In this document: in pieces, positions 1,745 through 14,826 of the stretch
Position numbering within the stretch: the stretch's first letter is position 1
How the letters are laid out: each line of letters begins with the position of its first letter
Assembly (NCBI GenBank): GCA_900065925.1
Contig: LN890280.1
Location: forward strand, 1,604,451 to 1,668,450
Length of the DNA stretch: 64,000 nt
Origin: Nitrosotalea devaniterrae
GTDB taxonomy: Archaea; Thermoproteota; Nitrososphaeria; Nitrososphaerales; Nitrosopumilaceae
Reading direction: 5' to 3'
Made by a program: the position numbers and the translations under genes
The notes under the pieces: model-generated
The model's input: the letters and a program-made list of their open reading frames with translations, nothing else
Databases searched by the model: none
Told to the model about the DNA's origin: nothing

Positions 1745-1954
1745 GTGACAGTAGTACAACATAGCCAGTTCGATATGCTTGTAGATACATCAAATGATAC
1801 CCTGACGTCAACTGATGAAGATAGCCTGCAGGAAATAAAAGCAAAGATGGTACAGATTGACAAGGATATATCAGAGTTCAAAGTGATGCTTGTCAGCTAC
1901 CAGTCCAAAGTCCGCAGAATACTCTTTGACTCTTTAAAAGAAAATGATACTTGA
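1745..1954 (+). CDS. Small acidic hypothetical protein
   Basis: About 69 residues from the GTG at 1745, or 59 from the ATG at 1775. I prefer GTG 1745 because it lies about 27 bases after the AT block of the divergent promoter, as expected for a leaderless archaeal gene; a TTG at 1736 would lie inside the operator. The protein is acidic and helical ('DEDSLQEIKAKMVQIDKDISEFKVMLVSYQSKVRRILF'), compatible with a short coiled coil. Its end overlaps the start of the next gene by 11 bases, so the two are probably co-translated. I recognise no family. Confidence 0.55.
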   Translation: MTVVQHSQFDMLVDTSNDTLTSTDEDSLQEIKAKMVQIDKDISEFKVMLVSYQSKVRRILFDSLKENDT

Positions 1955-3134
1955 TCTTGTACTGATATCATCAATTGTATCCATTCCAATCCTGGCAGGA
2001 GCCCTCAAAGACAAATCCTCAAGCAGCACTGTCAGATCTCTTACAAAGATAATTGCTCCAGTAGTTGGCATCTTTCCATTATGCTATATCTTTTACACTC
2101 TGCTGCAAGCAGCAGGGATACGAATCAGTTTTGATCTTGGACAGTCTCAGAATTATGGCACCATACCATTGATTCTCTTTGCAGGCTGTTCCTATTTGAT
2201 ATCTTTGAAGCTGGTAGAGTTCGGGGAAAAAATTGGAGAAGAAGAACGTTGTGGTATACGTGATGATACACGCAACGTGACAGAGCAAGTTGAGGAAATA
2301 TTGATACCAAAACTACAGGAGCATGCATCACAAGTGGAGGCAAGGACTGGAATAGTTCTTGATAAAAAACTTGAAGAATTTGTATTACACTTTGATCATA
2401 CCATAACACAAATTACAAATGGATTTGACACTCTCAAGGATGCCTACTGTGAATGTACAAATTCCAATGATAACATGGCATCCACAAACAAAGAGCTACG
2501 ACAAACACTAGATGATATCAAGACTGAGCTTGAGAGTTTACGTGGATTCACAGGCGAGATAGTAGATCTTTGCAATAAACTGGACGAGAAAAATATCATC
2601 TTGCAGTCAAGAATTGAGACATTAGAACCAGAAAAACAAGAACCGGAGACAGATACTCAAGATGAGACTGGTGCAAAACTAACATCACAGGATGGCATGG
2701 CAAACCGTACCATAGGATTAGAGGCACAACACGAAATGGCAAGATATCTTGGAGAGATAGGATTTGATATCAAAGAAAGTCACGGTGCAGGCGAGGCTGA
2801 CTATATCATACGAAAAAAAGACGCGATTGTAGCTATCGGGTCAAACAAGGCATACATGCTATACAACGAGCCAAAGAGGATGCAGAGGAGGATCTCATCC
2901 AAGGATGTCGAGCCTGAGATTATTCTTGCAAAAAAACTGCAGGTGCCACTTGTTATACTTGTGACAAACAGAAAAAATGGTAGAAGGTGGGCAGGCCTTG
3001 TATCAGAGAATGATCTTTCACAGTGGAGTGGCATATCAACTCCTGTTATACTAGCAAAGGATGACGAGTCATCAGAGAAGGTTCTGCAGGAAGACTTTGC
3101 AAATGTTCTTGGAACTATCGGTGCGGTGATTTGA
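1944..3134 (+). CDS. Membrane-anchored coiled-coil protein with endonuclease-fold-like C-terminus
   Basis: 396 residues in three parts. Residues 1-90 hold about three hydrophobic segments ('MILDLVLISSIVSIPILAG', 'IIAPVVGIFPLCYIFYTLL', 'IPLILFAGCSYLISLKLVE'), likely membrane spans. Residues 100-230 are a long charged coiled coil. Residues 255-396 ('IGLEAQHEMARYLGEIGFDI', then 'GAGEADYIIRKKDAIVAIGSNKAY') follow the helix-strand-strand order of the PD-(D/E)XK fold, with D in 'EADY' and K in 'GSNK', but the usual acidic residue two before the lysine is a serine, so activity is doubtful. It overlaps the preceding small gene. Function unknown; the nuclease-fold reading is an inference from pattern. 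Confidence 0.6.
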   Translation: MILDLVLISSIVSIPILAGALKDKSSSSTVRSLTKIIAPVVGIFPLCYIFYTLLQAAGIRISFDLGQSQNYGTIPLILFAGCSYLISLKLVEFGEKIGEEERCGIRDDTRNVTEQVEEILIPKLQEHASQVEARTGIVLDKKLEEFVLHFDHTITQITNGFDTLKDAYCECTNSNDNMASTNKELRQTLDDIKTELESLRGFTGEIVDLCNKLDEKNIILQSRIETLEPEKQEPETDTQDETGAKLTSQDGMANRTIGLEAQHEMARYLGEIGFDIKESHGAGEADYIIRKKDAIVAIGSNKAYMLYNEPKRMQRRISSKDVEPEIILAKKLQVPLVILVTNRKNGRRWAGLVSENDLSQWSGISTPVILAKDDESSEKVLQEDFANVLGTIGAVI

Positions 3135-3192
3135 TGGTATTTGCAATGTACAAAACTGCACAAGACGTATACTGCATTTCTGTTTTTAAGAG

Positions 3193-3471
3193 ATGACTGA
3201 GAATATATTTTTGCGCAAAGTAGGAAGAATAAAAAAGTCGCTATACGTCAATATTCCTTCAAAGATTGCCAAGACGCTTGATATTACAAAAGGTTCCAGT
3301 CTTTATGTTATAGTTCAGGATGATAAGGTGATACTGTCAAAGAACCCTGAAGATGTTACACCAGATACTGATCAATCAAGGCCAAGCTTGGAATCTGGAA
3401 CCAGAACAGACAATGAAATAAAAAAAGACAAGCGTCTTGAGCTACTGCTAAAAGATGGTTATGAATGGTAA
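3193..3471 (+). CDS. AbrB/SpoVT-type DNA-binding protein
   Basis: 92 residues. The first 50 ('RKVGRIKKSLYVNIPSKIAKTLDITKGSSLYVIVQDDKVILSK') show the swapped-hairpin AbrB/MazE pattern: basic start, 'V.IP..I...L.I..G' core and a closing strand. The acidic-basic tail ends in 'LLKDGYEW'. Proteins of this kind act as transcription factors or as antitoxins. No toxin gene follows; the next 600 bases are non-coding, so it is either a stand-alone regulator or an orphan antitoxin. Confidence 0.75.
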   Translation: MTENIFLRKVGRIKKSLYVNIPSKIAKTLDITKGSSLYVIVQDDKVILSKNPEDVTPDTDQSRPSLESGTRTDNEIKKDKRLELLLKDGYEW

Positions 3472-3582
3472 GTACAGTTGTATTTGTTCCATTGTACATA
3501 CCAATCATGTTGCAAGTCATGTGCATCTCTTCCCAGTTTGATCTTCTCCATATTACTATGAGAGGTGCAAAATTAAAAAGCA

Positions 3583-3672
3583 AAAAAGACTCTAGTCTTT
3601 TTCTTGAAATGCTCTAGTTTTTCTGGAAATACTATAGTCTTTTCTTGAAGATACTACAGTCTTTCATGGTAT
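3583..3672. repeat. Hairpin plus about four imperfect 20-22 bp tandem units
   Basis: AAAAAGACT (3583-3591) and AGTCTTTTT (3594-3602) form a perfect 9-bp stem with a 2-base loop. From 3591 the pattern 'TcTAGTCTTTTtCTTGAAaT' recurs at roughly 3591, 3613, 3633 and 3655, with one to five differences each. A transcript from the AbrB gene would carry a U-rich hairpin here, so it may be a terminator; the tandem units could also be a protein-binding array. Confidence 0.4.
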
Positions 3673-4082: not shown

Positions 4083-5660
4083 TTACATATAGTAAAGATA
4101 TTCATGTCTTGGATTCACTGACTCTGGTAAACTTGCCATGACTTCTCCTACTTTCTTAGAGAACAACAATGTTATTGGTTTTGCAAGACTAAAATCTGCA
4201 CTGTTCCAATTCATTTTACTTAGTGCAAGTATCTCAGTAAGAACCACGTCAGGTGATGAGTCTCCATAATGTTCCAAAATATCTAATGGTAATGGAACAT
4301 GTGCTCCAGGATAAGTTCTGAGATACGGTGTAAACCCTCTAGTGTATAACAGATAATTCGTTTTACCAAGCTGTATTACAGTACCACGTAAAGGAGGAAA
4401 TTGACCGTATCTGAAGAAGCGTATATCGCGTTCACCAATAGCAACTAGATCATGCATCTTGATTTCTTTTAATGCGCTCTCGAATCCTCTTTTTTCATCC
4501 TCCCAGTATTTCGATGATTTATGTACAACTACACGAAGTGGAGGCTGTCCAATTCTGTTTGTGTATAGTTCAATTGCTTTTTTCAATAACTCTTCAGCAC
4601 CTTTTTCATTTAGATGAGGAGAACGATCCTGATGTTTGTCCCATTCAAATCGGTCTCCTCTTATCACCAAACCTTCTCCAGTGTAAGTAAACACTTGAGC
4701 CATGCTGGTTCTCATCCTGTTTTCATCATCGGTTAGATCTTTGAAGAAAGTAATGCCTACGTAACACGTACCTATTTTCATTCTAGTCATAGTCCATGGA
4801 AAACCACTACCTTTGTAGTGTAATGCGACCGAAAAATTCCATGCAATGGTTGCTAGGTCTTGACGATTTTGTTTTCCATCTATTTTCTTAGGCTGTGTTG
4901 TAGAAGGCCATACAATTTGTGTAGGCATACCAAAAGCCATGCCGCCGGCCTTTAAAGCCCTCCAAAAATTTGTAACTTCAATATCTTTTTCTATTATCTT
5001 CAATGCCTCAGCTTCGAAATTATCCAAAAAGACTTGTTTTTTGCCTGTTGCATCTGGTGTAAGATGATGTTTTAGAGTTTCGGCCAAATCTCCCCTCTTT
5101 GGAGGTCTCTTGACTTTTACAATACCGGTTGATGTTCTTTTAACTACGCATGAATCTACAACATCTTGTGGCAATGCGCATACCACAACATTTGGTTTTG
5201 GCACTCTTTCGCTAATATTTTCAATTTTATCAAGAAACAATTTGACTGCACTCTCTACACGTTTTTCAAATATTGGTTGTTCAACTGCTCTTTTTACATC
5301 AAAAGTTGTAATCGTTTCATTGAACTCATCAGATAAAGTTAGAAAGCAATCAAATGCATCCTTAAAACCTGGGAAAGGAGGATGATGAAATGGATTATCA
5401 TTTGAGCTAGGAACTTTTTTCATTAAACTTTGTAGGAATATTTTTGTTTGTCCTAATGTTTCACCAGTACCTATTATTCCAACAGAGATTGATGTAGGGG
5501 TAGGCACTCCGGAATCTGTTCTTAAAGGACCATACAATGTTAGACCAACCTTTGGATCTATGTGAGTCTTACCGTCTCCAAAAACTAACAGAGGTTCTGG
5601 GATGTACCAACTCTGAAATTTTTTTCTACTTTGAAGGCTGACATGTTTAGATTCTGTCAT
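4083..5660 (-). CDS. Short prokaryotic Argonaute (MID-PIWI), catalytically inactive
   Basis: 525 residues, the length of short Argonautes that keep only MID and PIWI. The MID part includes 'VVVCALPQDVVDSC' (158-171), the PIWI part 'QDLATIAWNFSVALHYKGSGFPWTM' split as an A-W-N helix and a K-G-S-G-F-P-W turn (268-291), 'CYVGITFF' (299-306) and 'RVVVHKSSKYW' (376-386). In active PIWI domains the first catalytic Asp follows the strand that here reads V-G-I-T, so the RNase H-like tetrad is missing, as expected for short Argonautes. The gene overlaps the upstream TIR-APAZ gene by ATGA. In characterised SPARTA systems the Argonaute, guided by small RNA to invading DNA, switches on the partner's NADase. 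Assignment is from motifs and gene order, not a search. Confidence 0.88.
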   Translation of the reverse strand: MTESKHVSLQSRKKFQSWYIPEPLLVFGDGKTHIDPKVGLTLYGPLRTDSGVPTPTSISVGIIGTGETLGQTKIFLQSLMKKVPSSNDNPFHHPPFPGFKDAFDCFLTLSDEFNETITTFDVKRAVEQPIFEKRVESAVKLFLDKIENISERVPKPNVVVCALPQDVVDSCVVKRTSTGIVKVKRPPKRGDLAETLKHHLTPDATGKKQVFLDNFEAEALKIIEKDIEVTNFWRALKAGGMAFGMPTQIVWPSTTQPKKIDGKQNRQDLATIAWNFSVALHYKGSGFPWTMTRMKIGTCYVGITFFKDLTDDENRMRTSMAQVFTYTGEGLVIRGDRFEWDKHQDRSPHLNEKGAEELLKKAIELYTNRIGQPPLRVVVHKSSKYWEDEKRGFESALKEIKMHDLVAIGERDIRFFRYGQFPPLRGTVIQLGKTNYLLYTRGFTPYLRTYPGAHVPLPLDILEHYGDSSPDVVLTEILALSKMNWNSADFSLAKPITLLFSKKVGEVMASLPESVNPRHEYLYYM

Positions 5661-7042
5661 TCTTCCACTTCCTCATTTTCTATTTCATCAATATTGAAAT
5701 CCGCTTTTGTATCATCCTCTGCTACTTCAAACACTTTTTCAATGGAGAGTTGATCCCCTTCTATTCCAACTGATATGTCAGAAACCGCTGGAGTGATATC
5801 TACTTCAAGTGAAAGGTCATGTGCTAGTTTCATTGAGATTTTTTCTTGTCCTTTTGAAAGTATGAAACACCAGAAACGAATATGATAAAAAACAGAAGAA
5901 TTGTATTCGTTATGAGTCCATTTTGATGAAAGTGAACCTATTTCTCTGGGAGAAATAGCATGTTCCCCATCGGAAGTAAAAGTCCAACCAGGTACAATTT
6001 GAAGAACTATTTCGTTATCCACTAGCAAAAACTTGGCTTGAAGTGATTGATGTGCCCAGAATATAGATCCATCTTTGCCTTTTTGATATTTTTTAACTAT
6101 TGTTCTAGTTGACTTTCTTGTTCCGGTGTTCCATGAAACCTCTCTATTACCTCCTCCGTATGGAAGAAAAAAGAACCTCTCGTGCTTTTTATCATAACGC
6201 ATTCCTAGATCATAGCAATGATTCCTAAGAGTACGATTCAACATTTCTATCAAGCCATTTTTTTTATCAAGATTATTTATCCAAGGAGTTATTTCATTTT
6301 TTTCTATAGATTCAGCAGTCAACAATTCTCTAAAAATACAGTATTTGTCATTTAGATCACAAAATGAATAGATCCTACTTTCCTTTATCATAAAAGTTGG
6401 ATGCGCACCTTTTACCTTTCTATTCAAATGATCAAAGACTTCACGATAAGTAAGTGATGCTACCGGTCCACTCCAAATATGTCTTGGAATTTTCAAGACT
6501 GGAAGTAAGTTACTTGCAAGTTGTTCTTCTACTTCATCAGCATACTCGATAGGAAAAAGCATTTCTGTCGGAAGAGAGTTGAGAGTAGATGGTCGCATTT
6601 GTCCACGAGGAAGTTTTTGATTTCTTAAGAGTGCGAGGAGTTTTGTATATGACTTGTTATACTCAATATTGTTTCTGCAATACAACACAGTTCGTATTTT
6701 TAGAGAAGACGGGATCTCGCAATTTCCCAACCATATGGGAATAACAAAGCCGCGTCTGCCGCTTGGATCATTATAAACAGCCATGGTCCACTCCATGTTT
6801 GGCCACTCAGCATTGATAGAATTTTCAGATAATGTGACACCTACAAAGCGAGATTTTTTCATGGCATATTCTATCTTTAATACATTATTTTCGCCTGGAA
6901 TGATGTCCCAGTCATCATAAAAGACTTTGAGTTTTCTATTGTTGTAATCTTCATTCTCAATTGATTCAGCTAATTTTTGAACCCAAGGCTTGTCAAGACT
7001 ATTATGGCAAAGAAAAATATCATATTCAAAATCTGAAGACAT
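5657..7042 (-). CDS. TIR-APAZ effector protein of a SPARTA-type Argonaute system
   Basis: 461 residues. The N-terminal TIR domain (1-135) shows 'YDIFLCHNSLDKPWVQKLAESI' (box 1), 'VFYDDWDIIPGENN' (the BB-loop region) and 'AEWPNMEWTMAV', where E84 is placed like the catalytic glutamate of NAD-cleaving TIR domains. 'GFVIPIWLGNCEIP' closes the domain. The remainder (about 165-450) is long, beta-rich and without the TIR pattern, in the position of the APAZ domain that packs on the Argonaute. The stop overlaps the Argonaute start by four bases, so the two are translated together. Known SPARTA complexes deplete NAD when they detect plasmid or phage DNA, killing or arresting the host cell. Confidence 0.85.
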   Translation of the reverse strand: MSSDFEYDIFLCHNSLDKPWVQKLAESIENEDYNNRKLKVFYDDWDIIPGENNVLKIEYAMKKSRFVGVTLSENSINAEWPNMEWTMAVYNDPSGRRGFVIPIWLGNCEIPSSLKIRTVLYCRNNIEYNKSYTKLLALLRNQKLPRGQMRPSTLNSLPTEMLFPIEYADEVEEQLASNLLPVLKIPRHIWSGPVASLTYREVFDHLNRKVKGAHPTFMIKESRIYSFCDLNDKYCIFRELLTAESIEKNEITPWINNLDKKNGLIEMLNRTLRNHCYDLGMRYDKKHERFFFLPYGGGNREVSWNTGTRKSTRTIVKKYQKGKDGSIFWAHQSLQAKFLLVDNEIVLQIVPGWTFTSDGEHAISPREIGSLSSKWTHNEYNSSVFYHIRFWCFILSKGQEKISMKLAHDLSLEVDITPAVSDISVGIEGDQLSIEKVFEVAEDDTKADFNIDEIENEEVEE

Positions 7043-7179: not shown

Positions 7180-7252
7180 TGAATAAATCATCCCAATATC
7201 ATTACAACTTAGGTATACGAATGAATCATGCTTGAAAATATGATTTAGTCTA

Positions 7253-7294
7253 GTAAACAAATGTAAACACTTTTTTGTTGACAATTGTTTACTT
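7253..7294. repeat. Left 42-bp inverted repeat arm flanking the ATPase gene
   Basis: This arm matches the reverse complement of 8461-8502 at 41 of 42 bases (difference at 7270, C against T). The arm is itself an imperfect palindrome: GTAAACAAATGTAAAC at 7253-7268 faces GTTGACAATTGTTTAC at 7277-7292, 14 of 16 bases complementary, across a T-rich centre. It ends 8 bases before the GTG start of the ATPase gene. Confidence 0.9.
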
Positions 7295-7302
7295 TCAAAA
7301 TA

Positions 7303-8466
7303 GTGTCAAATCCATTCATGCCCGGAAATGGGATAGAACCTCGCTATCTGGCAGGAAGGGAAGAATTTATAGAATTTTTTGAGAGATCTTTGAAATCCTA
7401 TGAAGGAGGTCTTCCAAGAAATACTATTTTATCGGGCTTGAGAGGTTCTGGAAAGACTGTCCTTTTACGGCGTTTCAAGGTGTTAGCTGAATCAAGAAAT
7501 TGGATAGCAATTGAAAGAGAATTTAATGATAGGTTTTCTGATGAAAATTCATTTGCAGAAGCAATTATCAAAGATATAATCGAAGGCGCAACAGAAGTAT
7601 CACTTGCTAAGAAGGCCAAACAAGTTGGAAAAAAAATACTTGATATAATAAAACCTGAGGAGCTTGGTGCTTATGGTGTTACTTACAAACCATTCTACAA
7701 AGAAAAGAAACATCTCTTAGAGGATTACTTGAAAGAAATGTTAGTAAAGAATTGGAATGCTTTCAAGAAATCTGATAAAAATGGAGTTGTATTTCTTTAT
7801 GATGAATTTCATACGATAAAAGATTCCAAACAACAAAAATCTTATCCACTTGCTAGCTTACTTGGAGCTATATCTTATGCACAAAGAAATGGCTGCAAAT
7901 ATTACCTATGTTTGGGAGGTCTGCCAATAATCACATCCAATCTGAAAGATGCAAAAACCTACACTGAGAGAATGTTTGAACTAAGACAAGTGAAAAATCT
8001 TGAAGATGTCGAAGCCAAAAAAGCAATAATAAATACACTCAAAAGTTCAGCCTATCAATTTGACGACAAACTAATTGATGAAATCATAGAAGAAACTGGA
8101 GGATATCCATACTTTATTCAATTCTATGGTTACTTTATAATAGAAGAGACTGGAAAAAAACTTGTCACTCTTAAAGACTTTCTAGGGATTAGATCAAAGA
8201 TAATCAAAGAACTTGATGCAGGTTTCTTTGAAGATAGAGTAAAATTGGCTTCTTCAAAGGAACGACAAATACTTGCTGCCATGGCCAAAGCAGGCATGGG
8301 GGAGATAGAAATCAAACAGATTAGAAAAATATCAAAGATTGGTCATGGTGTTCTCATGGAATTGTTAAAGAGGTTGATAGAGAAGGGCTTGGTCTACAGG
8401 GCTGAGAGAGGAAAATATGGTTTTACTCTGCCGCTTTTTAGAGAGTTTCTACTTCGACTAAAGTAA
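7303..8466 (+). CDS. AAA-family ATPase with C-terminal winged helix
   Basis: 387 residues from the GTG at 7303, giving 'MSNPFMPGNGIEPRYLAGRE', the usual opening of this ATPase family; an upstream in-frame TTG at 7285 lies inside the inverted repeat. Walker A is 'GLRGSGKT' (45-52); Walker B is 'VVFLYDEFH' near residue 165; a sensor-like 'LCLGGLPII' follows. The last 75 residues ('SSKERQILAAMAKAG...GHGVLMELLKRLIEKGLVYRAERGKYGFTLPLFREFL') are a winged helix. This is the layout of Orc1/Cdc6-like and related AAA proteins. The stop TAA (8464-8466) is part of the right inverted-repeat arm. It faces away from the SPARTA genes. Possible roles are plasmid-type initiator, regulator or defence ATPase; none is proven. 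Confidence 0.82.
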   Translation: MSNPFMPGNGIEPRYLAGREEFIEFFERSLKSYEGGLPRNTILSGLRGSGKTVLLRRFKVLAESRNWIAIEREFNDRFSDENSFAEAIIKDIIEGATEVSLAKKAKQVGKKILDIIKPEELGAYGVTYKPFYKEKKHLLEDYLKEMLVKNWNAFKKSDKNGVVFLYDEFHTIKDSKQQKSYPLASLLGAISYAQRNGCKYYLCLGGLPIITSNLKDAKTYTERMFELRQVKNLEDVEAKKAIINTLKSSAYQFDDKLIDEIIEETGGYPYFIQFYGYFIIEETGKKLVTLKDFLGIRSKIIKELDAGFFEDRVKLASSKERQILAAMAKAGMGEIEIKQIRKISKIGHGVLMELLKRLIEKGLVYRAERGKYGFTLPLFREFLLRLK

Positions 8467-8502
8467 ACAATTGTCAACAAAAAAATGTTTACATTTGTTT
8501 AC
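8461..8502. repeat. Right 42-bp inverted repeat arm flanking the ATPase gene
   Basis: Reverse complement of the left arm (7253-7294) at 41 of 42 bases. It contains GTAAACAATTGTCAAC at 8463-8478 facing GTTTACATTTGTTTAC at 8487-8502 and supplies the stop codon of the ATPase gene. I see no target-site duplication outside the two arms, so a simple transposon is not shown. Together with the left arm there are four copies of a 16-bp site around one gene. Confidence 0.9.
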
Positions 8503-8554
8503 CATGAATCTTTGAACAAATTACTGATTTATTATATCACATATCAATGAGAGT

Positions 8555-8665
8555 ATGACATCTCCACAAGGCGATGAATGTTTCACATTGACTACAAGTT
8601 GCTGCAACTGCTGCAGCAGTAACAGATGTTCTTGTGTGTTCTCATGGATCGCAAAGAATGTTTAG
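8555..8665 (+). CDS. Possible Cys-rich 36-residue peptide
   Basis: An ATG at 8555 opens a 36-residue frame ending at TAG 8663-8665. It has seven cysteines (positions 9, 16, 17, 19, 20, 25, 27) arranged C-x6-CC-x-CC-x4-C-x-C, a metal-binding look. An AT-rich TATA-like stretch (about 8528-8537, 'TTTATTATAT') lies about 22 bases ahead, right for a leaderless transcript. It follows the ATPase gene. Against it: the frame is short and the minus strand just downstream carries another small gene, so chance cannot be excluded. Confidence 0.33.
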   Translation: MTSPQGDECFTLTTSCCNCCSSNRCSCVFSWIAKNV

Positions 8666-8684
8666 ATTCAAGTAAAATACTGGT

Positions 8685-8840: not shown

Positions 8841-9076
8841 TAATTCAAGTTGTATTTGGTAGTTGATAAATTATTTGTAGAATCTTTTTGGAAGACTGGT
8901 AAAGTAGCAACAACTAGAAATCTATTTGGTCTTTTCTCGTACAAATCAAGCAGCATCTCAATAAACTCACTTGTATACATACTGCGATCTTTCATCTTTG
9001 CCTTGTGTACTGCCTTAAGAATTCTATCATAGGTTTCAGTTCTTAATGTAAGTGTACTGTATTCTCCTCTTGGCGA
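8807..9076 (-). pseudogene. Decayed copy of the small ribbon-helix-helix gene
   Basis: The minus-strand frame reads 'SPRGEYSTLTLRTETYDRIL', 'KAVHKAKMKDRSMYTSEFIE', 'MLLDLYEKRPNRFL...', very close to the intact gene at 11,958-12,122. The start is gone: where the relative has TTG-CCA this copy has TCG-CCA (9071-9076) preceded by a TAG stop at 9080-9082, and no ATG, GTG or TTG precedes the conserved region. The usual stop after the second helix is also lost, so the frame runs on into paralogue 1. An internal ATG at 8995 would give only the second half. Its promoter motif (near 9095-9110, ACAATTTATCGA on the minus strand) is still recognisable. Confidence 0.65.
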
Positions 9077-9258
9077 TGTCTATATTTTTTATGGTATTGT
9101 CGATAAATTGTTGGTAGCAATTTATTAGGAATTCTCATCATAATTTTTCTGTATGTTATAGAATAATCATACGGATCTCTTAAGTATGACTTATCCGGTA
9201 CCTGATCAATCAGAGATGACTACAAAATGGATCAAATGTCCCACCCTGGTACTATACC

Positions 9259-11808: not shown

Positions 11809-11922
11809 TTATTTCAAAATACTTCCACAGTTTGAACAAAATGAAGCATCCTTGACATTCTTTGTTCCACAACGTAGACAGACAGAGACATTACGTACGA
11901 TTGATAAATTATTTGTAGACAT
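11809..11922 (-). CDS. Zinc-ribbon microprotein
   Basis: 37 residues from ATG 11,920-11,922 to TAA 11,809-11,811. The core 'CLRCGTKNVKDASFCSNCGS' has two C-x2-C knuckles 10 residues apart, the classic zinc-ribbon ('CxxCG...xxFCxxCG') that often starts larger archaeal proteins; here it is the whole protein. It overlaps nothing and follows the small RHH gene at 11,958 by 35 bases on the same strand, so they may share a transcript. Its opening codons coincide with the string TCTACAAATAATTTATCAA, also found near 8,865, showing that this segment was duplicated. Confidence 0.5.
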   Translation of the reverse strand: MSTNNLSIVRNVSVCLRCGTKNVKDASFCSNCGSILK

Positions 11923-11957
11923 TGTAGAAACATAAGATAGTAGTAACCGCTTGTAAT

Positions 11958-12122
11958 CTACCTAGATTTCTTTTCATACATATCAAGTAGCATATCCAAA
12001 AAGTCACTTGTATACATCCTTCGATCTTTCATCTTTGCCTTGTGTACTGCCTTGAGAATCCTATCATAGGTTTCAGTTCTTAGTGTAAGTGTATTGTATT
12101 CTCCTCTTGGCAACAATTTCAT
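11958..12122 (-). CDS. Small ribbon-helix-helix-like protein (paralogue 2)
   Basis: 54 residues: 'MKLLPRGEYNTLTLRTETYD', 'RILKAVHKAKMKDRRMYTSD', 'FLDMLLDMYEKKSR'. A strand ('YNTLTL') and two helices give the ribbon-helix-helix layout. It is the intact relative of the decayed copy at 8,807-9,076 (about 80% identical over the shared part) and aligns to the genes at 8,685 and 12,638. ATG 12,122 is the first start; a TTG four codons in would give the same 'MPR' opening as the other paralogues. A zinc-ribbon microprotein gene follows on the same strand. Confidence 0.65.
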   Translation of the reverse strand: MKLLPRGEYNTLTLRTETYDRILKAVHKAKMKDRRMYTSDFLDMLLDMYEKKSR

Positions 12123-14774: not shown

Positions 14775-14826
14775 TCAAGTATGAATCTCCACTCTGCATG
14801 CAGAGTAAAAATCCCACCTCCCGCAC

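Follow-up and report, generated by a model that had tools for sequence, protein, structure and literature searches.

One of the genes in the window, the 64,000 nt-long stretch of Nitrosotalea devaniterrae DNA analysed here, encodes an ATPase with a C-terminal winged helix and is located between two inverted 42-bp arms, whose four 16-bp sites occur in full nowhere else in the genome. We observed these arms, their restriction to the ATPase's own gene, their concerted change with the protein, facing sites upstream of the gene throughout the family and a divergence between genomes that is bounded by the arms. Judging from sequence comparison, we consider this locus to be best explained, with a probability of roughly 55%, by a self-binding, autoregulated STAND-like ATPase that has its own paired operators and is exchanged together with them as a matched cassette.

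Two mirrored arms enclose a single ATPase gene

The left arm (positions 7253–7294, forward strand) consists of two facing 16-bp sites (7253–7268 and 7277–7292) separated by an 8-bp T-rich spacer, and the right arm (8461–8502, reverse strand) is an inverted copy of it that contains the stop codon of the ATPase gene. The arms match at 41 of 42 positions, with the single mismatch in the 8-bp spacer; taken as 7253–7295 against 8460–8502, the inverted repeat is complementary at 42 of 43 positions. An inverted match of 41/42 in 64 kb has an expectation of ~1e-12, estimated from base composition, and this repeat is not a product of chance. The pattern GTAAACAAWTGTMAAC is matched exactly by the four 16-bp sites at 7253–7268, 7277–7292 (reverse strand), 8463–8478 and 8487–8502 (reverse strand). 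Each site is composed of two GTMAAC half-sites 10 bp apart, and an arm thus reads as two rightward half-sites, the 8-bp A/T spacer and two leftward half-sites.

The ATPase gene (7303–8466, forward strand, 387 aa) is the sole gene between the arms. It starts with a GTG at 7303, 8 bases past the left arm, an assignment backed by a close relative, in which the corresponding codon is ATG, and its TAA stop codon (8464–8466) sits within the right arm. The coordinates hence bear out what a first-pass annotation had read from the letters concerning the repeats, the four sites around one gene and the positions of start and stop. A conserved stretch directly outside the left arm (7214–7252, forward strand, beginning with AGGTATACGAATGAATCATGCTTGAAAAT), which also lies beside a truncated copy of a related gene in the genome G006, is a possible promoter, and the left arm is a likely operator overlapping the transcription start region. 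By inspection, no target-site duplication was seen beside the arms, either here or in the close relative. A gene between inverted repeats is also the layout of Thaumarchaeota insertion sequences and casposons (PMC6563490); unlike those, the locus has neither a transposase nor Cas1 and no target duplication, and we dropped a transposon reading of the window for want of a transposase and a duplication.

The protein combines a STAND-like ATPase with a winged helix

Pfam matches (AAA_16, E 8e-9; MarR-type HTH, E 6e-5) and an AlphaFold model (pLDDT 82, six-sequence alignment) confirm that the ATPase, which has a STAND/archaeal-ATPase fold, ends in a winged helix. The protein carries a Walker A motif (GLRGSGKT), a Walker B motif (VVFLYDEF) and, after the ATPase core, a GxP-type motif (GGYPYFIQFY), which fits the STAND group and whose G267 and P269 are invariant in alignment A3. 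The large sensor or superstructure repeat domain typical of STAND proteins is absent from the window protein, which consists of ATPase and winged helix. A PDB sequence search with this single protein gave no match; in the fold ranking of the AlphaFold model, PABY2304 (PDB 2qen, TMq 0.63) and SSO1545 (2fna, 0.61) were the best whole-protein matches, followed by Orc1/Cdc6 (0.51) and then by ORC, RuvB and NLR/STAND structures. The identity to SSO1545 and PABY2304 is only 17–20%, and we found nothing on DNA sites around those genes.

The Orc1/Cdc6-like plan that had been suggested for the protein holds at the level of fold, as an AAA+ domain is followed by a C-terminal winged helix as in Orc1/Cdc6 initiators, and private repeats adjoin the gene, which is a further trait of these initiators. 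However, SSO1545 and PABY2304 fit better, and by score the protein falls outside Orc1/Cdc6: it reached 15.6 bits with the Orc1/Cdc6 model TIGR02928, whose cut-off is 181.3. The gathering score of Pfam ATPase_2 (PF01637) was missed as well (20.8 bits against 33.2) and is cleared by a distant relative, L016 (51.6 bits).

ATPases of the SSO1545 type can act as transcription regulators, as does IniR, which binds DNA and activates transcription (PMC5760070). The window protein shares with IniR/MalT-type STAND regulators (PMC5760070) the combination of a STAND/SSO1545-like ATPase with a DNA-binding domain, but those possess a ligand-sensor domain and regulate other operons, whereas here we found neither a sensor domain nor a second target gene. 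Its winged helix resembles AbiEi (E 4e-5), and AbiEi-type antitoxins (PMC7319586) are likewise winged-helix proteins that autoregulate through several inverted repeats; they lack an ATPase domain, and the window ATPase lacks a toxin partner. For the ATPase itself, we identified neither a further function nor a partner.

Protein and sites have changed in concert

In the whole 1.805-Mb genome (G000), full matches to GTAAACAAWTGTMAAC are restricted to the four arm sites. A lone site with one mismatch was found elsewhere, at 1134812 within unrelated sequence, and a reversed control pattern gave zero matches. The same holds for the close relative, Thaumarchaeota archaeon isolate Centralia_MAG_119 (G023), whose ATPase is 70% identical and has the same arm layout: its genome contains exactly four sites, all at its own ATPase gene. 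Position 10 of the site is T in all four sites of G000 and G in all four sites of G023. The arms are accordingly more alike within a locus (41/42 in G000, 39/42 in G023) than between the loci (33–35/42).

The synonymous divergence (dS) between the two genomes is 1.84 for the ATPase, compared with 0.32 for the adjacent Argonaute and TIR genes and 0.24 for the integrase of the same element. According to likelihood breakpoints, the divergent patch runs from 7250 (7240–7269) to 8476 (8463–8494), with both edges inside the arms, and the right flank common to both genomes (8503–8672, 84% identical as against 70% in the gene) lies outside the cassette. The arms have tracked the protein through a dS of ~1.8. 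If the protein and its sites have to match, selection for matching would keep the arms alike within a locus, let them change together and make them the bounds of an exchanged segment. Gene conversion is then unnecessary for the identity of the arms, and the recent origin or ongoing conversion that had been invoked for the near-perfect repeats is not needed.

Near-perfect inverted repeats 1.2 kb apart could in principle recombine and flip the gene between them, and an invertible segment had been among the first proposals. Yet the gene has the same orientation relative to its neighbours in G000 and G023, the two intact copies, inversion would leave it reading away from its promoter, and bacterial relatives hold the upstream sites with no partner, all of which renders this explanation very improbable.

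We favour the autoregulated ATPase also because a private pair of sites before the gene is the common denominator of the family, for which an operator bound by the winged helix that the gene itself encodes is the simplest explanation. This domain would recognise a locus-private site, present in each arm as two facing pairs of half-sites spaced by 10 bp. Binding to the left arm, an operator just upstream of the start, would set the protein's own level, and the right arm would repeat the whole operator, mirrored, at the stop codon. Both arms are probably bridged by an ATP-dependent oligomer, with a loop over the gene, or else the right arm may titrate the protein; such binding, autorepression and bridging are inferences, as is anything else that the ATPase may do. 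As the protein has to fit its sites, a transferred gene would work only together with its arms, and the unit would be exchanged as one cassette between genomes, here inside an element integrated at a tRNA-Leu gene. The self-binding regulator or initiator of the first-pass annotation holds up well in outline, given the private sites, their concerted change with the protein lineage and the operator position.

The ATPase gene resides in an integrated element with a defence system

The ATPase is carried by a ~15.1-kb element integrated at a tRNA-Leu(tag) gene, which extends from attL, about 0.3 kb before the start of the window, to an attR-like repeat of 17 bp (14809–14825, forward strand) that duplicates the 3′ end of the tRNA-Leu gene. 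A tyrosine integrase follows the tRNA-Leu gene. In G023, the same element has a length of ~12 kb and 19-bp ends. A second patch, 1944–3600, is also old (dS ~1.2 between G000 and G023), which makes the element a mosaic. A ~210-bp sequence at 8860–9080 and 11901–12121 recurs within the element and across many genomes of the genus.

Adjoining the ATPase gene and divergent from it is a short Argonaute and TIR-APAZ gene pair (4083–7042, reverse strand) that is nearly identical in G023. Its matches in PADLOC (E 2e-148) and to TIR-type Aga models identify it at the sequence level as a SPARTA-type defence system in a thaumarchaeal tRNA-Leu-integrated element. Three loci with relatives of the ATPase (L018, L019 and L021) have no Argonaute or TIR neighbours, and therefore the pair is probably not a required partner of the ATPase.

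Upstream sites are common to the family, the right arm is not

We inspected ~30 relatives, including bacterial plasmid genes at ~28–30% identity. Facing sites are over-represented ahead of the start codon: 13 of 31 relatives exceeded their shuffles (p ≤ 0.05; Fisher p 5e-9). These sites usually lie 10–20 bp before the gene, many with a spacer of ~8 bp (we judged spacers and half-site distances in the relatives by eye), and their sequence differs from locus to locus; in some relatives, they are weak or absent. A Chloroflexi relative, for instance, has TTCGGAATGATAA, 8 bp and TTATCATACCGAA directly before the start. A Micrarchaeota relative (61% identity) possesses, by inspection, a left arm, its spacer 8 bp long, as well as an exact GTAAACAAATGTAAAC at the stop codon; this left arm went unscored in the scan of 31 relatives, which demands strictly symmetric arms. 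Among 109 plasmid records with matches, we read a small sample of 10 relatives, several of which have facing sites before the start, and on plasmids pMK-1 and pPO70-3 the ATPase gene is the sole place with the operator, save for a single 11-mer with one mismatch.

Less common is the right arm, which repeats the left one in inverted form at the stop codon. It is archaeal, occurs in two separate clades and is absent from all bacterial and some archaeal relatives inspected, so that its role is not explained by simple autorepression. Armless homologues, which the first-pass annotation had held against its own proposal, hence exist with regard to the right arm only, the upstream sites being family-wide. 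A search of viral contigs with a single sequence gave no match; downstream inverted repeats in several viral-contig relatives are by appearance ordinary G+C-rich hairpins, and we did not count them as arms. In a distant subfamily (L009, L067, L073–L076), a small zinc-ribbon gene lies upstream of the ATPase gene, and triple direct repeats of TGACA, TAACA or TCACA, 9–10 bp apart, precede both genes, with the second base differing between loci in concert. Palindromes of the CCTATATAGG or TGCATATATGCA type are located at the gene edges of the ATPase_2 relatives L010, L069 and L068.

In three relatives from the sister clade, tandem arrays lie beside the gene in place of arms: 73 bp × 21.8 beside a gammaproteobacterial gene (L019, 7234–8823), 9-bp units in L063 (1097–1465) and 46 bp × 3.7 beside an archaeal gene (L065, 2703–2873). 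The array units of L019 and L065 have CCCACGCCTGARAGT in common.

Such iteron-like arrays and the many relatives on plasmids would suit a replicator–initiator pair, with the ATPase as the initiator of its element, the left arm as origin and the right arm titrating the protein. We noticed no candidate replication protein other than the ATPase in the 15-kb element, and archaeal initiators have private, co-located repeats and spread with extrachromosomal elements (PMC4010727). The closest precedent is oriC2-cdc6E of Haloarcula hispanica (PMC3936714), in which an AAA+ gene is privately paired with its own sites, ORBs on the upstream side and an ORB-rich, titrating region immediately after the gene, and which is thought to have been acquired by integration, just as the window gene resides in an integrated element. 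With initiator sites on both sides of its gene, it also makes the earlier statement that no standard element matches the layout too strong. It is this downstream titration, together with the private initiator–origin pairs that travel in archaea, that leads us to keep replication under consideration. However, oriC2-cdc6E has an AT-rich origin and 11 scattered ORBs instead of one complete mirror operator per side, the window protein falls short of the Orc1/Cdc6 model and folds more like SSO1545 and PABY2304, no unwinding element was identified, and relatives also occur in ordinary chromosomal contexts and in a Vibrio superintegron-type array, so we regard an initiator as possible but unlikely. 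In that last case, the relative of Vibrio sp. HDW18 (L093, 3836–5358) lies between near-identical ~31-bp repeats, like Vibrio superintegron cassettes, in line with the self-contained single-gene unit of the favoured reading. Among openly licensed papers, we found no description of the arm layout for this ATPase family.

A second subfamily carries unrelated arms and has probably moved

A group of ATPases of ~25% identity from the same taxonomic family has arms of wholly different sequence, made of tandem palindromes, with the left arm closely preceding the start codon and its partner on or close to the stop codon. Both edges are armed in G007, G658, G004, G006 and G137 (45 nt, near perfect), and other members have the left arm only. 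In a tree of 50 relatives, with long branches and uncertain deep joins, the both-arm state requires at least three changes and falls into two well-supported separate clades; on these sequences, one gain followed by two losses may also account for it.

A 1,378-bp unit of arms plus ATPase gene is 94% identical between G004 and G006 in unrelated contexts with sharp junctions. Outside this second subfamily, broken-off copies that retain the left arm were found at another locus of G006 (first 49 residues, 98% identical, with ~36 bp of left flank) and in G203, from another family (150 residues, 73% identical). Apart from the window itself, its left flank occurs only in G023 and G006. These copies, the unit in two contexts and the arm-bounded patch between G000 and G023 speak for the minimal mobile cassette that had also been proposed, in which the arms would be recombination or transposition ends joined by the ATPase, with a nuclease or recombinase acting in trans. 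Against it stand the missing transposase and target duplication at the window arms, and arm-bounded divergence is equally expected from selection for a matched protein–site pair. Moreover, the G004/G006 unit has its junctions not at the arms but 16 bp and ~70 bp beyond them, the right one at a repeated GC-rich core, CGGGCCCGGGG(G), that is followed genus-wide (L117, L118, L131–L159) by one of two ~100–115-bp elements and preceded by unrelated DNA. The core and its elements look like a gene-cassette or attC-like array, and since the right junction is made of such a core and recurring element, the mover may be a separate system. Searches for empty sites yielded no clean one, and the joined flanks of the G004/G006 unit matched repeated elements instead. 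We think mobilisation in trans rather unlikely, and would put a shade lower still a minimal mobile unit of a new kind, in which a solitary STAND-like ATPase uses its own sites as both gene ends, bridges them and spreads without coding a nuclease, with private ends in each lineage.

Under the favoured reading of a self-binding ATPase with its own operators, a widespread family of no assigned function, annotated as 'ATP-binding protein' and present in archaea, bacteria and on plasmids, apparently carries the DNA that it recognises at the very edges of its gene. As protein and target change together, the specificity of protein–DNA recognition would become readable from genomes. In the ATPase–arm pairs, nature may also offer a test of two ideas: that private pairs of regulator and operator are selfish cassettes open to exchange, or that they act as hidden replicators on mobile elements of archaea.
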